From NCBI GenBank assembly GCA_902783435.1, contig CACZQV010000019.1, positions 1 through 14,093 of the forward strand: 14,093 bases of DNA, in the 5' to 3' direction. A program made the translations under genes and the position numbers. The notes under the pieces are model-generated. The model was given only the letters and a program-made list of their open reading frames with translations. It was not told the DNA's origin and searched no databases. How positions within the stretch are numbered: the first letter of the stretch is position 1; each line of letters starts with the position of its first letter. Source of the stretch: an uncultured Erysipelotrichaceae bacterium. Lineage in GTDB: Bacteria > Bacillota_I > Bacilli_A > RF39 > UBA660. Positions 3,980 through 12,775 of the stretch are shown piece after piece.

Positions 3980-4996
3980 TTATTTGTCTAATGTGTAAAA
4001 TAATTTACATTTACCTTTACTATAATCAATATGAGCAATACTTCCATTAATTATAGGTAAACTAGGTCCCTTATGAGATACATCTGCATCATATATTACA
4101 GGTATATTTAATTTAGATAAAATACTATCTTTTAAACATGATTTAACATCATAATCATAACAAGATGTTTCTACTCCAAATCTTCCAAATATAATTAATT
4201 TTGTGTATTTAAAATAATCATATTCATTCATTTTCCATAATACTCTAATTGTTTCTTCCATTGATAATTCACAATTATCAAAATACCATATTATTCCATC
4301 ATTTTTATACTTCTCATTAAATTCAGAAATACCATCATATTTAGTACCAATAAGTTCACTAATTAAATCAAAACATCCACCTATTATTCTACCTTCTACT
4401 TTGATATTTTTATTATCTAAAGATTTCCATTCTACTTTTTCTGTCAGATTTAATCCTTCTAAACCAGTAATTTTTTCAGATCTTTCATTTTCATATAAAT
4501 CATATGAAGTTAATTCTTTTAAATCACCTTTAATAGTATCTAAAAAATCATAATGACATTTATAGAAGTTTTCTTCGCCAAATGATGCGAAATTAGATCC
4601 ATAAATGGTTGCGATATCTAACTTAGTAGTTATTGGAAATAATAGTCCAGTAGGATCAGAAAAACCTACGATAAATTTTGGATTATTTTTTATAATATCA
4701 AAATCTACATAAGGTAGACATTCTATTAAGAAATCTCCACCAGCTGCGCATATTAGAAAATCAATGTTTTTATCTTTAAACATATTATTTATTTCTAATC
4801 CTCTAGTCTTAGGATCACTACTTCTACCTTTTTCTGAATTATATAAATTATCTGATATTGTTACTTTATAATTATTATCTTCAAAATACTTAATAGAGTG
4901 TTTAAATTTATTTGCTTTAAATTTATCTTTTGCCCCATCTGATGGTGCAGGTACACCTATCCTATCTCCTTCTTTAAGAAATTTGGGATACTTCAT
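3980..4996 (-). CDS. S66 family peptidase (LD-carboxypeptidase / MccF-like)
   Basis: 338 residues, the family's usual length. The N-terminal start GDRIGVPAPSDG matches the first strand of S66 proteins. AAGGDFLIECLPYVDF and VGFSDPTGLL follow, with Ser113 in GFSD the likely nucleophile. Near residues 233-245 is the segment GIIWYFDNCELSMEE, where the family's catalytic Glu is expected; by eye Asp240 falls there, with Glu243 as an alternative. The catalytic His is His308 in DADVSHKGPSLPI. S66 enzymes cut LD-peptides of recycled murein or cleave peptidyl-nucleotide antibiotics (MccF type); I cannot choose between these. The start overlaps the end of the upstream membrane protein gene by 23 nt, with GAGGAAGTG before the ATG, so the two are co-transcribed and probably coupled in translation. 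No clear terminator follows. Confidence 0.85.
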   Translation of the reverse strand: MKYPKFLKEGDRIGVPAPSDGAKDKFKANKFKHSIKYFEDNNYKVTISDNLYNSEKGRSSDPKTRGLEINNMFKDKNIDFLICAAGGDFLIECLPYVDFDIIKNNPKFIVGFSDPTGLLFPITTKLDIATIYGSNFASFGEENFYKCHYDFLDTIKGDLKELTSYDLYENERSEKITGLEGLNLTEKVEWKSLDNKNIKVEGRIIGGCFDLISELIGTKYDGISEFNEKYKNDGIIWYFDNCELSMEETIRVLWKMNEYDYFKYTKLIIFGRFGVETSCYDYDVKSCLKDSILSKLNIPVIYDADVSHKGPSLPIINGSIAHIDYSKGKCKLFYTLDK

Positions 4997-7142: not shown

Positions 7143-7169
7143 AAAAAAGGTAGATATTTCTACCTTTTT
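7142..7169 (-). terminator. intrinsic terminator ending the exporter/acetyltransferase operon
   Basis: AAAAAGGTAGA (7144-7154) pairs with TCTACCTTTTT (7159-7169) around a 4-nt loop, with a T-run on the minus strand. The TAG stop of the acetyltransferase (7162-7160) is in the stem. Confidence 0.88.
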
Positions 7170-7717
7170 ATTTGATTTGCATAAATTTTTTCATTTTCTC
7201 TTAGTGATTTTTCTATATCTATTTCGTATCTTACACAATTCATACATTCTACTTCATTATAAAATTCTTTTATTCTTTTACCACCTAGAGCTTCCATAGT
7301 TTTCCAAGAAGGTTCATTTTCTATTTCAGCATCTAATAATACTTTATCTAAGCCATATTTTTGACATACTTGTAGTCCTAAATAAAGATTTATTTTATTA
7401 TACCCCTTTTTTCTTTCTGTAGGACGAATACCATAACCGATATGTCCTCCACATTTTTGTAGTCTTTCATTTAATATTAGGCGAATGTTTATCATACCAA
7501 TAATTTTATTATCATTTTCTCTTACTAAAAAGTATGTTAATTCACCGTTTCTTTTTCTTAATTCTATTTTTGATAACCATGTTTCATAATCATCTATATA
7601 ACTTCTTAAACCACCAGTACCATTAATTTCTGAATTATATTTTTTATGTTCATTAATATAATCTATAGCATCTTCTTTTCTTTCTATGGTAGGTTCTTCA
7701 AATTTGAAAGTTTCTAT
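7160..7717 (-). CDS. GNAT acetyltransferase with a non-canonical start (ATA or ATT)
   Basis: About 185 residues. The first ATG in frame is only at 7495, yet the frame stays open for 74 more codons upstream, and these encode the expected N-terminus of a COG3981-type acetyltransferase: TGGLRSYIDDYETWLSKIE and YFLVRENDNKIIGMINIR. Downstream come GGHIGYGIRPTERKKGYNK (the acetyl-CoA loop) and ENEPSWKTMEALGGKR. No ATG, GTG or TTG exists between the upstream stop and 7495. The run AGGGGG (7730-7725) lies 7 nt before an ATA at 7717, an ideal distance; an ATT at 7723 (reading I-N-I-E where M-N-I-E would be natural) is the other candidate. Translation may depend on coupling to the preceding acetyltransferase gene, whose stop is 7719-7721. 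The substrate is unknown. A start-codon mutation is also possible. Confidence 0.7.
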   Translation of the reverse strand: METFKFEEPTIERKEDAIDYINEHKKYNSEINGTGGLRSYIDDYETWLSKIELRKRNGELTYFLVRENDNKIIGMINIRLILNERLQKCGGHIGYGIRPTERKKGYNKINLYLGLQVCQKYGLDKVLLDAEIENEPSWKTMEALGGKRIKEFYNEVECMNCVRYEIDIEKSLRENEKIYANQIKR

Positions 7718-7718
7718 A

Positions 7719-8513
7719 TTAATTCCCCCTTACTTTGAAGTTTACTAAGTATCCTCTATCTTCATAACCTACTTTTTTGTATGTATGATTACTTGCTGCA
7801 TAATGAAGATCTGTATATAAGACTGGAGTTAATCCTTCTTCTAATAATTGTTTAGTTACTTCGTACACTAAGCTTCTACAATATCCCTTACATCTTTCTT
7901 TGGGAGGTGTATATACATGGGATAACTTAGCTAAACCATTATCAGTACCATAACATCCTAGTGATACTGCACGTCCTTCATTATTTCGCCATACAAAATA
8001 ATGTTCATCATCTAACCATTTTGAAACTTCTTCTAAGGCTTCTTCGTATGTTAGTTCTTCTTGATAATCCATTTCTTTAGAATTATCTTGCCAGTACTTG
8101 GCTACTAATGTTTTATCAGAATACTTTACATGATCTAGAAATCCATTTGCTTTTTCTACATCATTTAATTCTTTACATAAAAGAAAGCCCATTTCAAAAT
8201 AATCATATGTATCTAAATTATTTTTAAAATATTCATAAACTTCTTTCTTACAAGTAAATTTATTTTCATCTTCTGTTAAATAGTTTTCTTTTAAAAGATT
8301 TAATACTTCTTTAAGTTTTTCGTTAGATAAATTATCTTTAGTCCAGACCCAGGTAGGATACCCTTTAGTTCCTTTTGCTAATAGATAATTTTCTTCATCA
8401 CTTAGAAATAGTTTTTCTTTGGATTTTAACATTTTATAAACTAGAGAAAATTTTTCTTTATCTTTTAGAAAATCTTTATTTAAAAATAGTTTACTATAGG
8501 AATGGTCTGACAT
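7719..8513 (-). CDS. GNAT family N-acetyltransferase with a long N-terminal domain
   Basis: 264 residues. The C-terminal part (about 165-262) is a GNAT domain: EHYFVWRNNEGRAVSLGCY strands, KLSHVYTPPKERCKGYCRSL (acetyl-CoA binding loop), then VLYTDLHYAASNHTYKKVGY near the end. The N-terminal part (about 1-160) is helical and charged, typical of the two-part acetyltransferases of Bacillota; its job is unknown. A very strong AGGAGGTGAG lies just before the ATG, and only about 20 nt separate it from the permease gene upstream, so it belongs to the exporter operon. Its last codons (AGG GGG AAT TAA) also form the ribosome binding site of the next acetyltransferase. Confidence 0.85.
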   Translation of the reverse strand: MSDHSYSKLFLNKDFLKDKEKFSLVYKMLKSKEKLFLSDEENYLLAKGTKGYPTWVWTKDNLSNEKLKEVLNLLKENYLTEDENKFTCKKEVYEYFKNNLDTYDYFEMGFLLCKELNDVEKANGFLDHVKYSDKTLVAKYWQDNSKEMDYQEELTYEEALEEVSKWLDDEHYFVWRNNEGRAVSLGCYGTDNGLAKLSHVYTPPKERCKGYCRSLVYEVTKQLLEEGLTPVLYTDLHYAASNHTYKKVGYEDRGYLVNFKVRGN

Positions 8514-8534: not shown

Positions 8535-9365
8535 TTACACTCTTACGTTCATTAAGTTTGTACTACTATATTTTCTTAATCCCCTATAGAATATAAAGAA
8601 AGCTAATAGTACTAAGAATATAGTTATTAAAATTACTATAATTGTATTAAATAAATTGAATGTACTCATTATTTGAATTGGTAAATATATAGAGAAACCT
8701 AATGGAATAATTGTATAGAATAATGTTTTTATTATTCCACTAAATATACCTTCTGGATATGTAGCAAAGTTTGTCATTAATCCATTAACAGTATCTCCAA
8801 ACACATCACTTTTACCAAACCAAAAAGCTAATGATCCAGTAATTATTGCGATACTTGTGATTATTAATCCACTAGTTATAGAAAATAATATGAATAATCC
8901 TAATACTTTTATACTAAATCCATAAAAGAATAATAATATTATTCCATATAATAAATCTCCTAGAGCTGATACTTCTACATTACTAGTAATTAAAGATAAT
9001 AATACATTTTTTGGTTGTATTAAATAGTTATCTAATTTACCACTATTAATATTTTCTGATAGTTTGAATGATTCTTTAAAGAAGAAGTGAGATATACCAT
9101 ATCCACCTGCGGCTAATCCCCATAGTAGTAGGACTTGTTTAAAACTATATCCACCTACATCTTCTTTAATGGCATAAAGAATTATCCATTGAACTATAAA
9201 GCATGCGTTATTTAATATCATAAATATTATATTAGAGAAAAATGTAAATTTATTTAACATTTCTCTTTGTAGTGCATATTTAATTGATAGTAATGATATT
9301 TTAATTTGATTTAGGATTGACCTAAACTTCGGATGAATTGATTTGTGATTAACCACCGTTGACAT
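8535..9365 (-). CDS. ABC-2 type exporter permease (COG3694 type)
   Basis: 276 residues with about six hydrophobic segments. Recognisable family features are SGKLDNYLIQPKNVLLSL after the second segment and the loop YPEGIFSGIIKTLFYTIIPLGF before the last two segments. It would form the membrane channel with the adjacent permease, driven by the ATPase two genes upstream. The start overlaps the end of the preceding permease gene by 17 nt and has GGGGTGAG before it. The substrate of this transporter type is not established. Confidence 0.87.
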   Translation of the reverse strand: MSTVVNHKSIHPKFRSILNQIKISLLSIKYALQREMLNKFTFFSNIIFMILNNACFIVQWIILYAIKEDVGGYSFKQVLLLWGLAAGGYGISHFFFKESFKLSENINSGKLDNYLIQPKNVLLSLITSNVEVSALGDLLYGIILLFFYGFSIKVLGLFILFSITSGLIITSIAIITGSLAFWFGKSDVFGDTVNGLMTNFATYPEGIFSGIIKTLFYTIIPLGFSIYLPIQIMSTFNLFNTIIVILITIFLVLLAFFIFYRGLRKYSSTNLMNVRV

Positions 9366-10140
9366 TTAATTTTCTCACCCCTTTCTTATATATTAAATGA
9401 CATATTATAAAACTTATAATTACATAAATAATTTGCGCAATTATTATTTTTATAAAACCACTATTAGTAAAATTAACAAATAATTTAGCTGGTCCATAAG
9501 ATACAACGTATATTGGACTAAATTTAATTATTGGCTGCATAAATTGTGGGAAAAATTCTATTGGGAATATTGTACCTATAACTAGAATCATTTTTGAATA
9601 TAACCAGTAAAATGGAGAAGCATCTTCTATGAAGAAACTTATAAGAGCTAAACTAGTAATTAAGAATATATTTATTATAGTAGCTAATATACATGATAAA
9701 AGAATTCCTAATATTTGTATAAAGTTAATTTGAGGAAAAGTATGAAGGAATAAGAATCCTAATATCATACCTATAATAGTAACTATAACAAATTTTAATG
9801 TTACATTTCCTAAGTGATTAAATAAAGTATATTCTACATAGTTATATGGTTTATTTATGTTATATGCAATATTACCACTTTTAACATCACTACTAATCTT
9901 AGCGCATAATTTTCTTCCTTTTAAACTCATCCATAATATTTCAGTAACGATAACATACCATATCATTTGATTCATATTGTATCCATTTATTAATTCTTCT
10001 GGATCACTATAGATATATTTCCATAAATTAAGAAATATAAATATCATGATTATATAAGATATAAATCCTATTATGATATCAAATACATATTGTAGATTAG
10101 TCATTAATTCTGATTTATAAATGTATAAGTATTTTTTCAT
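9349..10140 (-). CDS. ABC-2 type exporter permease (COG4587 type)
   Basis: 263 residues with about six hydrophobic segments. The short SSDVKSGNIAYNINKPYNY element and the loop IFPIEFFPQFMQPIIKFSPIYVVSYGPAKL match the partner permease family of this three-gene transporter. Its ATG overlaps the stop of the ATPase gene (TAATG), and its end overlaps the second permease, so the three are translated together. Confidence 0.87.
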   Translation of the reverse strand: MKKYLYIYKSELMTNLQYVFDIIIGFISYIIMIFIFLNLWKYIYSDPEELINGYNMNQMIWYVIVTEILWMSLKGRKLCAKISSDVKSGNIAYNINKPYNYVEYTLFNHLGNVTLKFVIVTIIGMILGFLFLHTFPQINFIQILGILLSCILATIINIFLITSLALISFFIEDASPFYWLYSKMILVIGTIFPIEFFPQFMQPIIKFSPIYVVSYGPAKLFVNFTNSGFIKIIIAQIIYVIISFIICHLIYKKGVRKLNVNGG

Positions 10141-11120
10141 TATTTACCACCATCTTTATAAATATCACTAATTATATTTTCTAGAGGTACATTTGTAATA
10201 TTAATATCCACTATATTATCGGGATTTAATAATTTTATAGCGTCAGATACACTTTTCTTTTTAGTATCTACTTCTATCTTAAGATTATATCCTTTGTCTT
10301 TAAGAATAGTTAAACCTTCTTCATCATCTAAATTAACTTGTTTATTCATTTTAACTTCTACTATTTTTTTATTTAAGTAATGGTACTTTAAGTTTTCCAT
10401 AGTATCATCCATTACTATCCCACCATTATTAACAATTATTACTCTCTTACATAATTTTTCTATATCTGATACATCATGTGAAGTTAATACTACTGTAGTT
10501 TTATATTCTTTATTCATTCTCTTTATAAGTACTCTTATATTTTCTTTAACTACTGGATCTAGTCCTATAGTAGGTTCATCTAAGAATAATACTTTAGGTT
10601 CATGAATTAGTGATGCAACTATCTCACAACGTATTCTTTGTCCTAAACTCAAATTACGTACTGGAGTATTTATGAATTCTTCTAACTCAAATAATTCTTT
10701 CATTTCTTCTATTTTTTTCTCTACTCTTTTTTCAGGAATGTCATAGATGGCACCGAAGAATTTAAAATTATCGTATGGAGTTAAATGAGTCCATAATTGT
10801 TCTTTTTGTCCAAAAACACAACCTATTTCGTAGGCTAGTTTTTTTCTATCCTTGACTGGATCTAATCCTAAGATATCTACTTTTCCTTTGTCTGGAAAAA
10901 GGATACCTGTCATCATTTTAATTGATGTAGACTTACCTGCACCATTTGGTCCAATGAATGCAATCATTTCCCCTTTTTCTACCTCAAAAGAAATATTTTT
11001 AACAGCCTTGATGATTTTATATTTAGGTTTTACTAGCGATTTAAAACTTCCAATAAGTCCTTTTTCTTTTAGTTTTACTTTAAAAGTCTTTGATAGATTT
11101 TTTACTGTAATAACTGCCAT
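10140..11120 (-). CDS. ABC transporter ATP-binding protein (COG4586 type)
   Basis: 326 residues from the ATG at 11120, chosen because AGGAGTGG sits just before it; the frame is open to 11153. All ATPase motifs are present: Walker A GPNGAGKST (57-65), Q-loop Gln105, signature LSLGQR (157-162), Walker B VLFLDEP (177-183) and switch His215. The insert KLKEKGLIGSFKSLVKPK near residues 16-33 and the C-terminal domain of about 90 residues are typical of the ATPase that works with the two following permeases, a family compared with NodI/DrrA-type exporters. The gene is preceded by a leader with two tandem terminator-bearing RNA elements (11198-11422), which probably control the whole operon. Confidence 0.93.
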   Translation of the reverse strand: MAVITVKNLSKTFKVKLKEKGLIGSFKSLVKPKYKIIKAVKNISFEVEKGEMIAFIGPNGAGKSTSIKMMTGILFPDKGKVDILGLDPVKDRKKLAYEIGCVFGQKEQLWTHLTPYDNFKFFGAIYDIPEKRVEKKIEEMKELFELEEFINTPVRNLSLGQRIRCEIVASLIHEPKVLFLDEPTIGLDPVVKENIRVLIKRMNKEYKTTVVLTSHDVSDIEKLCKRVIIVNNGGIVMDDTMENLKYHYLNKKIVEVKMNKQVNLDDEEGLTILKDKGYNLKIEVDTKKKSVSDAIKLLNPDNIVDINITNVPLENIISDIYKDGGK

Positions 11121-11197
11121 ATAACCACTCCTTTCAAATATTTTTGTCTTCATAGATTCTTATATCATCAAAACTATTATAAATTATTTTAGTAAAT

Positions 11198-11244
11198 AAA
11201 AAAACACGGAAAGACACTACTTTACAAATTAGTGACTCCGTGTT
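11198..11244 (-). terminator. intrinsic terminator B of the exporter leader
   Basis: ACACGGA / TCCGTGT (11204-11210 with 11237-11243) plus inner CACTA / TAGTG (11215-11219 with 11230-11234), then seven T on the minus strand. It lies about 80 nt before the ATPase start, so it must be bypassed for expression. Confidence 0.85.
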
Positions 11245-11294
11245 TACGTGTAAGATTTCTCCCTATGCAGCTCGTTTAACTTATGCATACTCAC
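11244..11294 (-). promoter_or_regulatory. tandem leader RNA element, copy B
   Basis: Same architecture as copy A. Outer stem GUGAG (11294-11290) with CUUAC (11254-11250); inner 6-bp stem UAUGCA/UGCAUA (11289-11284 with 11269-11264) closing a 14-nt loop UAAGUUAAACGAGC. Conserved AAUCUUACACG and CGGAGUCACUA lead into terminator B. It looks like an aptamer or attenuator followed by its expression platform. AGUGA in the outer stem could alternatively pair with UCACU of the terminator, a possible switch. No known riboswitch class recognised. Confidence 0.6.
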
Positions 11295-11318
11295 TTTAAT
11301 CTATGAAAACTAGTCGAG

Positions 11319-11360
11319 AAAAAACAAAAACGGAGCACTACAAAACATGTAGTGACTCCG
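11319..11360 (-). terminator. intrinsic terminator A of the exporter leader
   Basis: CGGAG/CTCCG outer stem and CACTACA/TGTAGTG inner stem (12 bp with a one-base bulge), then TTTTTG and six T on the minus strand. It shares CGGAGTCACTA with terminator B. Confidence 0.88.
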
Positions 11361-11422
11361 ATAATTCGTGTAAGATTATTAATCTCTGTGTAGCTCGTTA
11401 AACTTATACACACTCACTCGAC
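11361..11422 (-). promoter_or_regulatory. tandem leader RNA element, copy A
   Basis: Starts within a few bases of the predicted transcript start. Outer stem GUGAG (11417-11413) with CUUAC (11374-11370); inner stem UGUGUA/UACACA (11412-11407 with 11392-11387) around the loop UAAGUUUAACGAGC. Compared with copy B, two base pairs of the inner stem change in a compensating way (G-C to A-U, U-A to C-G) while 13 of the 14 loop bases are identical. GUCGAG (11422-11417) could also pair with CUCGAC just after terminator A (11318-11313), enclosing the whole copy. Confidence 0.6.
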
Positions 11423-11431
11423 TTGTCATAC

Positions 11432-11460
11432 ATAATACTATAAATATATTTATTTGTCAA
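11432..11460 (-). promoter_or_regulatory. sigma-A promoter of the exporter/acetyltransferase operon
   Basis: TTGACA (11460-11455), 17-nt spacer, TATTAT (11437-11432) on the minus strand. The predicted start, near 11425, gives a leader of about 305 nt that holds both tandem elements before the ATPase ATG. Confidence 0.82.
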
Positions 11461-11564: not shown

Positions 11565-11639
11565 ATGACATATAGAGAACGTTCTTTATATCTAATAATT
11601 ATATTACTATTTATTTTGATATTTGTAATATTAATATAA
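11565..11639 (+). CDS. 24-residue single-helix membrane peptide
   Basis: A short gene on the strand opposite to its neighbours. It encodes MTYRERS followed by an uninterrupted run of about 17 Leu/Ile/Phe/Val residues (with one Tyr), enough for one membrane helix. An excellent extended ribosome binding site (AAGGTGGTGAT, 10 of 11 matches to the ideal) lies 5 nt before the ATG. Its arrangement (tiny hydrophobic product, structured leader, isolated unit) resembles type I toxins or small holin-like peptides; a small sporulation membrane peptide is also possible given the neighbouring spore coat genes. I recognise no family. No antisense promoter could be identified. Confidence 0.6.
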   Translation: MTYRERSLYLIIILLFILIFVILI

Positions 11640-11667
11640 AAAAACATCTAGCTCAAAAGAGCTAGAT
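11638..11667 (-). terminator. intrinsic terminator of the cotJ operon
   Basis: ATCTAGCTC (11646-11654) and GAGCTAGAT (11659-11667) form a 9-bp stem with a 4-nt loop; GTTTTTTT follows on the minus strand. The plus-strand side lacks a T-run, so it is probably not a good terminator for the small peptide. Confidence 0.88.
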
Positions 11668-11733: not shown

Positions 11734-12381
11734 TTACATATAATTTTCATATGTATTAAAATTTAAATTATTTATAAAGAAGTCTTCATTGTTATATTTC
11801 ATTTTAGTTGGTTCATTATTACCATTTTTTAATGTTTTTTCATAGTGTTCAAATAGTTCTTTAAATCTATCGAAATGTACTATTTCTCTTTGTCTTAACC
11901 ATAGAAGTGGTCCTATTACATCAGGGTCATCAGTAAGGTCTATTAGGTTTTCATATACAGCACGCGCTTTTTGTTCTGCTGCCATATCTTCTGAAATATC
12001 AGCTAGTGGATCTCCTGTAGTTGCGAAATAAGATACAGTAAATGGTACTCCATTAGCATCTGTTGGGAATAATGCTTTAGCATGTTCTGCATAATGAGTA
12101 TCAAGTCCTGCTTCTTTAATCTCTTCTAGTGTTGCATCTTTCATTAATTGATAAATCATTGTTTCTAACATTTCAACATGACCTAACTCTTCAGTACCTA
12201 TATCGTTTAGTAGAGCTTTACCTTTATTATCAGGCATAGTTAATCTTTGATTTAAATAACGAAGTGCTGCCCCTAATTCACCATTAGCACCTCCATATTG
12301 AGTAACTAAATATTTAGCCATTCTTAAATCTTTCTTTTTAATATTTACAGGATACTGTAATCTTTTAACATATTTAAACAT
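11734..12381 (-). CDS. cotJC: spore coat protein CotJC, manganese catalase family
   Basis: 215 residues. The opening MFKYVKRLQYPVNIKKKDLRM and the domain order are typical of CotJC. Likely dimanganese ligands are Glu35 (GGANGELGAALRYL), Glu65 and His68 (GTEELGHVEML), Glu136 (EDMAAEQKARAVYE) and His169 (LRQREIVHFDRF). The family is placed in the inner spore coat and resembles manganese catalase, breaking down hydrogen peroxide. The C-terminus carries an extra Asn-rich tail of about 30 residues (from KNGNNEPTKMKYNN on), which is less conserved. It overlaps the end of the CotJB-like gene by 8 nt and ends at the terminator 11638-11667. Its presence implies the organism sporulates or descends from sporulating ancestors. 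Confidence 0.95.
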   Translation of the reverse strand: MFKYVKRLQYPVNIKKKDLRMAKYLVTQYGGANGELGAALRYLNQRLTMPDNKGKALLNDIGTEELGHVEMLETMIYQLMKDATLEEIKEAGLDTHYAEHAKALFPTDANGVPFTVSYFATTGDPLADISEDMAAEQKARAVYENLIDLTDDPDVIGPLLWLRQREIVHFDRFKELFEHYEKTLKNGNNEPTKMKYNNEDFFINNLNFNTYENYM

Positions 12382-12775
12382 TGTCTACCTCCCATGGCCA
12401 TTTATTATTAACCCATTCATTAATATTACTATTAATGGTCATTGGACCATATTTTGATTCATATTCTTTAATTAATTCTTCTTCTTTCTTTAAATAATCA
12501 TTAAAAAGAGTTAACATAGACTGATCATTAGGATTCATATCTAGATATAAATTCAAGTCATGCGCAGCAAAACAAATAGTCTGAATATTATATAACAATC
12601 TTTCTTGATCATTTGTAGGTTTTAATACTTCTGGTTTATAGTTTTTATATTCACTATAAATATTTTCAAACATATTACCTTTTTCAAATCCTTCTTTTGG
12701 ATTAAACAAATTTACTTTATTCATATTATTCATTGGATTATGTCTCCAATCATATTGATAATAATAGTTATTCAT
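12374..12775 (-). CDS. cotJB: CotJB-type spore coat protein with a CotJA-like N-terminus
   Basis: 133 residues. The C-terminal part (about 58-130) is a CotJB domain: LLYNIQTICFAAHDLNLYLDM, then a LFNDYLKKEEELIKEYESKYGP helix and a Trp/Pro-rich ending (WVNNKWPWE). The first 55 residues contain NLFNPKEGFEKGNMFENIYSEYKNYKP, which resembles the short CotJA protein usually encoded by a separate gene just upstream; no such gene precedes it here, so this may be a CotJA-CotJB fusion. The Asn/Tyr-rich opening MNNYYYQYDW fits a coat protein. GGGAGAT precedes the ATG. It forms an operon with cotJC. A mother-cell sporulation promoter is expected in 12776-12834 but I cannot place it safely. Confidence 0.88.
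   Translation of the reverse strand: MNNYYYQYDWRHNPMNNMNKVNLFNPKEGFEKGNMFENIYSEYKNYKPEVLKPTNDQERLLYNIQTICFAAHDLNLYLDMNPNDQSMLTLFNDYLKKEEELIKEYESKYGPMTINSNINEWVNNKWPWEVDNV

Follow-up and report, generated by a model that had tools for sequence, protein, structure and literature searches.

Tandem copies of one RNA element precede an exporter operon

What kind of RNA lies between the promoter and the first gene of an ABC exporter operon in an uncultured Erysipelotrichaceae bacterium, and could it control the genes behind it? The locus was analyzed as part of a 14,093-nt stretch of DNA, here called the window. A first-pass annotation, made from the sequence alone, had described two copies of one RNA element on the minus strand at 11198 to 11422, and this repeat was confirmed: copy A and then copy B lie 3′ of a promoter that is as strong as had been claimed (TTGACA and TATTAT boxes; Table 1). 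Loop and flanks are conserved between the copies, and the inner stem differs by compensating pairs (UGUGUA/UACACA in A, UAUGCA/UGCAUA in B), again as first described. Each copy has its own intrinsic terminator, a hairpin followed by a U-run, so that two complete copies, A and B, stand in front of one operon. A pattern made of the loop plus flanks matched twice in the window and not once in 200 shuffles, which, together with the 84 model matches at an E value of ≤1e-4 described below, excludes chance as the source of the copies.

The predicted RNA start of the window promoter falls near copy A. The 5′ arm of the copy A terminator (GGAGUCACU) includes the 3′ strand of the closing helix, P1; that of the copy B terminator shares bases with P5 and with the 3′ strand of this helix. 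Behind the copies are the exporter genes that the annotation had named, consisting of an ATPase gene and two ABC2_membrane_6 permease genes and followed by a GNAT acetyltransferase gene, which is likely the last clear member of the operon. Sequence searches of the PDB returned no match for the GNAT or for permease 2.

Table 1. Features of the element and its operon in the window
Feature	Position	Strand	Details
Promoter	11432..11460	-	-35 TTGACA, 17-nt spacer, -10 TATTAT; 11/12 consensus matches
Copy A, aptamer-like domain	11351..11418	-	P1 AGUGA/UCACU, P2 UGUGUA/UACACA, P4, P5; 83.0 bits (copy used in building the model)
Copy A, intrinsic terminator	11318..11359	-	-19.9 kcal/mol (extended hairpin), U-run
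Copy B, aptamer-like domain	11231..11295	-	P2 UAUGCA/UGCAUA; 85.4 bits (copy used in building the model)
Copy B, intrinsic terminator	11195..11245	-	-15.0 kcal/mol, U-run
Ribosome-binding site of first gene	11128..11135	-	GAAAGGAG; by eye
ABC transporter ATPase	10140..11120	-	ABC_tran; nearest NCBIfam DrrA, below its cut-off
ABC-2 permease 1	9349..10140	-	ABC2_membrane_6 domain match
ABC-2 permease 2	8535..9365	-	ABC2_membrane_6 domain match
GNAT acetyltransferase	7719..8513	-	Acetyltransf_1, FR47

The element belongs to a family found in one bacterial order

A pattern scan of one genome per species (84,980 species) returned 24 loci. Only one of these, locus L116 from an uncultured Erysipelotrichaceae bacterium, was judged by eye to be a true homologue; the other 23 were judged to be chance matches. 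The L116 element precedes the same type of operon, an ATPase gene and two permease genes (assigned by clustering with the window proteins). A second, more diverged copy lies upstream, directly behind a perfect promoter, so that the tandem arrangement recurs with copies that differ in sequence.

A covariance model was built from four copies, the window's A and B and the two of L116, and was run against 385 genomes of the order to which L116 belongs, which we take to be GTDB order RF39. Matches with an E value of ≤0.05 were found in 58 genomes. Six weak matches (L210 to L214 and L216; E values of 1.8e-4 to 0.0081), representing 5 of the 58 genomes (G379, G124, G151, G209, and G122), were dropped before counting, which left strong copies in 53 of the 385 genomes. 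A repeat search of 65 sources at an E value of ≤1e-4 yielded 84 copies, 81 of them distinct and the four model-building sequences (the window's two among them) included, with a median pairwise identity of 0.68 and up to four copies per genome. This covariance search had been suggested in the first-pass annotation with transporters and acetyltransferases in mind, and the genes behind the family that it recovered are most often those of ABC exporters and GNAT acetyltransferases.

With a refined model, 7 of 395 genomes matched at the class level, one of them weakly (G006; E value of 0.0014) and all with handles from the order set, and 2 of 392 matched at the phylum level (G001 and, weakly, G006); both searches used stricter filters, with which some weak matches are lost. 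Across the roughly 900 distinct genomes sampled (by handle number, all from one phylum), the family is confined to one order. Many of the related genomes are fragmented assemblies.

Covariation supports a junction closed by P1

The copies share an architecture in which P1 (AGUGA/UCACU) closes P2 (six pairs), P4 (GGG/CCU), and P5. Among the 81 distinct copies, 96.3% of pair cells held standard pairs, compared with 80.7% in shuffled alignments, and both-sided changes occurred at 12 of 17 pairs; when partners were shifted by 1 to 3 columns, pairing fell to 31 to 49%. Not one of 500 shuffles attained the observed number of paired cells, number of both-sided cells, or covariation score. For both-sided pairs, the observed count was attained by 11 of 500, which is weakly above shuffles, and for pair types by 282 of 500, which is not above them; support for covariation therefore rests on the first three measures.

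P2 was paired in 100% of its cells and covaried at all six pairs. P1 showed a change from U-A to C-G in five rows, and its outermost pair was broken in 34 of 81 copies. Since the structure used for the alignment contained P2 and P4 and not P1 or P5, the covariation of the latter two helices is not an artefact of fitting. A scan of all column pairs returned the same four helices along with cross-pairs that link P2, P5, and the edge of P3, which we read as linkage within subtypes. The inner stem P3 (at least two pairs) was present in 64 of 81 copies, compared with about 13 expected from shuffling. The runs GUGAG, U(A)A...AGC, GGG, UACAC, and GGAGUC are nearly invariant. A local closing stem, GUGAG/CUUAC, had been suggested by single-sequence folding; it was rejected, as the alignment gives AGUGA/UCACU instead. 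In being conserved and covarying, and in lying in the 5′ leaders of genes, the structure shows what is expected of the transcriptional riboswitch kind; its leader position rests on predicted promoters.

Held-out copies were obtained by searching 213 genomes of the family to which G373 belongs, 27 of which matched. Ten new genomes and G055, which the first model had missed, made up a set of 11 genomes with 13 copies that were found and aligned with the refined model but had not been used in building it. In these copies, 93.2% of cells were paired, P2 covaried at five of six pairs, and none of 500 shuffles attained the covariation score; at least as many both-sided pairs (7) arose in 136 of 500. 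The outermost P1 pair was broken in 9 of 13 copies and no P1 pair varied, so the held-out set adds no support for P1. At least one of the gene clusters seen downstream of the other copies was found again in 9 of the 11 genomes (exporter or GNAT in eight, a phosphodiesterase-like protein in one), and one of these nine contexts begins with a gene for a nucleotidyltransferase-domain protein. None of the same clusters was present among the downstream genes at L304 and L306.

Promoters and terminators frame the element

A hairpin with a U-run was found at or directly behind the end of the element in 83 of 84 copies and reached ≤-6 kcal/mol in 82; 17 of 252 shuffled controls passed the same energy cut. 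In 69 of the 82 strong terminators, four or all five of the UCACU bases fall in the predicted 5′ arm. The terminator-compatible fold was more stable than the P1-compatible fold in 83 of 83 copies, by a median of 10.6 kcal/mol in a comparison that leaves cotranscriptional folding out. P1 and the terminator are thus predicted to be mutually exclusive in most copies, and because P1 would exclude the terminator yet needs help to win, an ON switch is predicted.

Promoters with at least 10 of 12 consensus matches lie just upstream of 62 of 70 scored first copies (the first copy of L189 had no promoter match and was left out of the 70). The -10 box ends 6 to 15 nt upstream of AGUGAG, most often 9 nt, and on average 7% of shuffled versions of these upstream bases matched the score. 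Among the 84 copies, 13 follow a first copy at a distance of no more than 300 nt, and a promoter of this quality precedes one of these 13 second copies. Of the eight scored first copies with fewer than 10 matches, five lie behind another element's gene (c4 in four cases, c7 in one). We conclude with high confidence that the element is a cis-acting terminator/antiterminator RNA.

Exporter and acetyltransferase genes recur downstream

Downstream genes were compiled as 71 gene sets, counted by distinct first gene; genes were called by proximity on contigs that are often truncated, and labels were given to whole clusters on the basis of scans of one or a few of their members. An exporter ATPase was found in 27 sets, a GNAT (three clusters) in 32, either of these in 45, and the small protein c4 in 12; 18 of the 71 sets held none of these tracked classes. 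Four loci (L165, L167, L176, and L187) each contribute one exporter to the count two times, because one element immediately precedes it and another lies one or two genes farther upstream; about 23 exporters are thus independent. The cluster of the window GNAT (c5) was found again behind other elements, and the nearest PDB structures to the L208 GNAT are those of aminoglycoside N6′- and spermidine N1-acetyltransferases.

The c4 proteins (L167:4414-4953, minus strand, and 11 relatives) are encoded by the first gene behind 12 elements. One scanned member had no Pfam or NCBIfam match, and a profile search returned nothing below an E value of 0.4. For a structure model of c4 (mean pLDDT of 82.9), the seven best PDB matches were all structures of the Spo0A trans-activation domain, with Foldseek probabilities of 0.99 to 1.00 and E values of 0.11 to 0.65; this likeness is a predicted resemblance of fold, with homology not proven. 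Other downstream genes encode a SAM-dependent methyltransferase, an S51 peptidase, a nucleoside phosphorylase, LeuA, and SpoVT. The diversity of these remaining sets (Spo0A-like, SpoVT, and LeuA genes) blurs what can be said of a ligand. Eight proteins were scanned with PADLOC, and weak PglZ matches to one of them were the sole result.

The exporter was also followed from the protein side. Permease 2 matched in 32 of the 385 genomes, and a strong element was carried by 25 of the 26 genomes with permease matches at an E value of ≤1e-20 (Fisher P value of 1.7e-23, uncorrected for phylogeny), by 21 of 22 at ≤1e-50, and by 27 of 32 at ≤1e-10. When coordinates were compared by eye, the element lay upstream on the same contig in 21 of the 26 genomes. 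In G110, the element is counted as upstream by inference, because a contig break divides the exporter, whose translations on the two sides overlap; in G376, where the exporter ends at a contig break, the link to the element is a guess. Neither an element in the stretch read nor, by eye, a recognizable regulator directly upstream was found for the exporters of G237 and G052, and the stretch read around a broken exporter fragment in G324 held no element. Five weaker permease homologues (L274 to L278) were checked and had no element.

P2 subtypes partly follow gene context in the tabulated copies. Eleven of 12 c4 genes stand behind GAGAUA copies and the other one behind a GGAAUA copy. UAUGxA and UGUGxA copies mostly precede the exporter, which is also found behind GAGAUA copies, while UUUGAG copies, in which UAGC replaces GAGC, mostly precede GNAT, phosphorylase, or LeuA genes. 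This tracking could reflect ancestry or altered specificity.

A transcription-terminating ON switch is the preferred reading

Our best reading of the window is that it holds two complete switches in series from a new orphan riboswitch class. We give a probability of roughly 70% to the proposal that each copy forms an entire ON switch, acting through transcription termination and belonging to an orphan, riboswitch-like class with a putative ligand. The first-pass proposal that riboswitches or attenuators in tandem, of a class not yet known, stand before the exporter is in this way supported, with the word riboswitch, taken strictly, still putative. From the near-invariant junctions and the adjacent exporter and modifying-enzyme genes, we infer that the RNA probably binds a small molecule directly, which we favor over sensing by a partner.

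In the proposed mechanism, transcription would begin on or close to the 5′ strand of P1. During synthesis, P2 (with the inner stem P3 and the UAA/GAGC internal loop), P4, and P5 would form, and the near-invariant junction nucleotides would shape the putative binding site. With ligand present, P1 (AGUGA/UCACU) would be held, the 5′ arm of the terminator would be locked away, and RNA polymerase would read through; with ligand absent, the far more stable terminator would form and transcription would stop. In the window, polymerase would have to read through both copies in series, an arrangement expected to give low leak and a steeper response. ON polarity, sharpening by the tandem, and the type of ligand are features that we infer. 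The downstream genes suggest that the ligand may be a toxic amine- or drug-like compound subject to export or acetylation.

Orphan and validated transcriptional ON riboswitches share with this element a compact covarying aptamer-like domain, a near-invariant junction, a P1-type helix exclusive with the terminator, and exporter or modifying genes; the consensus and architecture of the element, however, match no Rfam 15 family convincingly. The tandem resembles the pseudo-cooperative arrangement of, for example, tandem TPP riboswitches, in which two complete copies with their own terminators precede one operon (PMC9481103). Here, too, the copies would act as two checkpoints in series; the RNA differs, and a ligand common to copies A and B is putative.

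We consider the element a strong candidate for a new riboswitch class, given the depth of its covariation, the promoter and terminator logic that it carries, and its recurring neighbor genes. The gene set points to chemical defense, for which, to our knowledge, few RNA sensors are established. A broader and distinctly tentative proposal is that the class acts as a sensor of a toxic molecule, antibiotic- or polyamine-like in nature, and that it coordinates a resistance-like regulon in one order of Bacillota with small genomes. Besides an ABC-2 exporter and several GNATs, this regulon would comprise a SAM-dependent methyltransferase, a nucleotidyltransferase, and Spo0A-like regulators of a single domain. 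Tandem copies would then provide a sharp response, and a chemical threat would be tied to a developmental regulator.

Alternative explanations

The main rival to the riboswitch is a protein-bound antiterminator. The occurrence of the family in one order only leaves room for a lineage-specific RNA-binding protein as the sensor, which would bind the folded element and stabilize P1. A global regulator of this kind would suit both the order-restricted distribution, as far as sampled, and a diverse regulon that includes Spo0A-domain-like and SpoVT genes. Yet the near-invariant nucleotides are placed in junctions and an internal loop, as in ligand pockets, and the adjacent exporter and modifying-enzyme genes are suited to direct chemical sensing. 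We regard protein-directed antitermination as a real but minor possibility.

The switch could instead work in the OFF direction, with the ligand stabilizing a P1-open fold so that the signal causes termination. GUG can pair with the conserved CAC of UACAC (in 97.5% of cells), and such pairing would free UCAC for the terminator. This rival GUG/CAC register, however, showed zero covariation and is broken in five copies that have C at position 3, precisely where AGUGA/UCACU covaries. Exporters and acetyltransferases are also usually induced by their own substrates, and OFF polarity is accordingly improbable in our estimate.

It is somewhat more doubtful still that a described class, such as guanidine-IV or Gd4v, includes the element as a divergent member or variant that the Rfam models missed. 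Searches of Rfam returned nothing overlapping the element in the window at E values up to 5 or at 13 further loci at E values up to 1, and thus no convincing match even at such relaxed values. An overlap with mir-306 at L116 (19 bits against a cut-off of 52 bits; E value of 2.6) was dismissed as chance. No T-box model, which Rfam presumably includes, matched in the window or at the 13 loci; the Rfam scan that the first-pass annotation had called for thus gave neither the known riboswitch nor the T-box that it had named as contradicting its reading. Among the papers listed for the terms used in the open-licence PMC literature, no description of the element was found; the nearest was the account of Gd4v (PMC9788692), and the passages compared from PMC11109978 did not match the element. 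Gd4v is similar in gene classes (GNAT and exporter genes) and in using a terminator mechanism, one that raises expression (PMC9788692). The observed architecture differs: guanidine-IV and Gd4v consist of two hairpins and a pseudoknot, the second hairpin being terminator-like (PMC9788692), whereas the window RNA is a junction of P2 to P5 with a closing P1 in competition with the terminator. The exporters named for Gd4v are MATE-like (PMC9788692), those behind the window element ABC-2.

A mobile repeat or terminator cassette with no regulatory link to its neighbors, which had likewise been named as a reading that could overturn the proposal, would account for up to four copies per genome in varied contexts. 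It is contradicted by the narrow promoter spacing, the same-strand genes behind the element, the recurring exporter and GNAT contexts, and the covarying helices. Searches of phage records with one copy, of plasmid records with the window pair, and of viral contigs with two strict patterns gave no match, and we consider this explanation very unlikely. A looser pattern returned 100 stretches from viral contigs, none of which was judged to fit.

T-box leaders and leader-peptide attenuators also make a terminator/antiterminator choice in the 5′ leader; the element differs from them in having neither a T-box model match nor a conserved peptide. Ribosome-mediated attenuation through a leader peptide can be practically discounted: copy B and one homologue share an open frame (readable as MHKLNELHREKSYT and MYKFNELHREKSYTS), but no short ORF is conserved across the 84 copies, an ATG occurs in the first 14 bases of only 20 of them, the peptides are mostly short and unalike, the predicted RNA start close to AGUGAG leaves little room for a ribosome-binding site, and the variation follows pairing.

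Other features of the window

Downstream of the operon, a short GNAT-like ORF (7160 to 7495, minus strand; 111 amino acids) has a weak Acetyltransf_3 match, below its cut-off, and looks truncated. A similar split pair from a GNAT cluster (87 and 123 amino acids) stands behind an element at L180. Divergent from the element, a possible 24-amino-acid hydrophobic ORF on the plus strand (11566 to 11640) lies, by eye, behind a good ribosome-binding site. Mn-catalase-like and CotJB genes occupy 11734 to 12775 on the minus strand, and a terminator-like site at 11667 to 11646 separates them from the element's promoter. A few genes past the exporter and GNAT genes, an LD-carboxypeptidase family S66 protein is encoded at 3980 to 4996 on the minus strand. 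At the edge of the window, which cuts it, a match to OLE RNA (RF01071; 386 bits) covers positions 1 to 572 of the minus strand.
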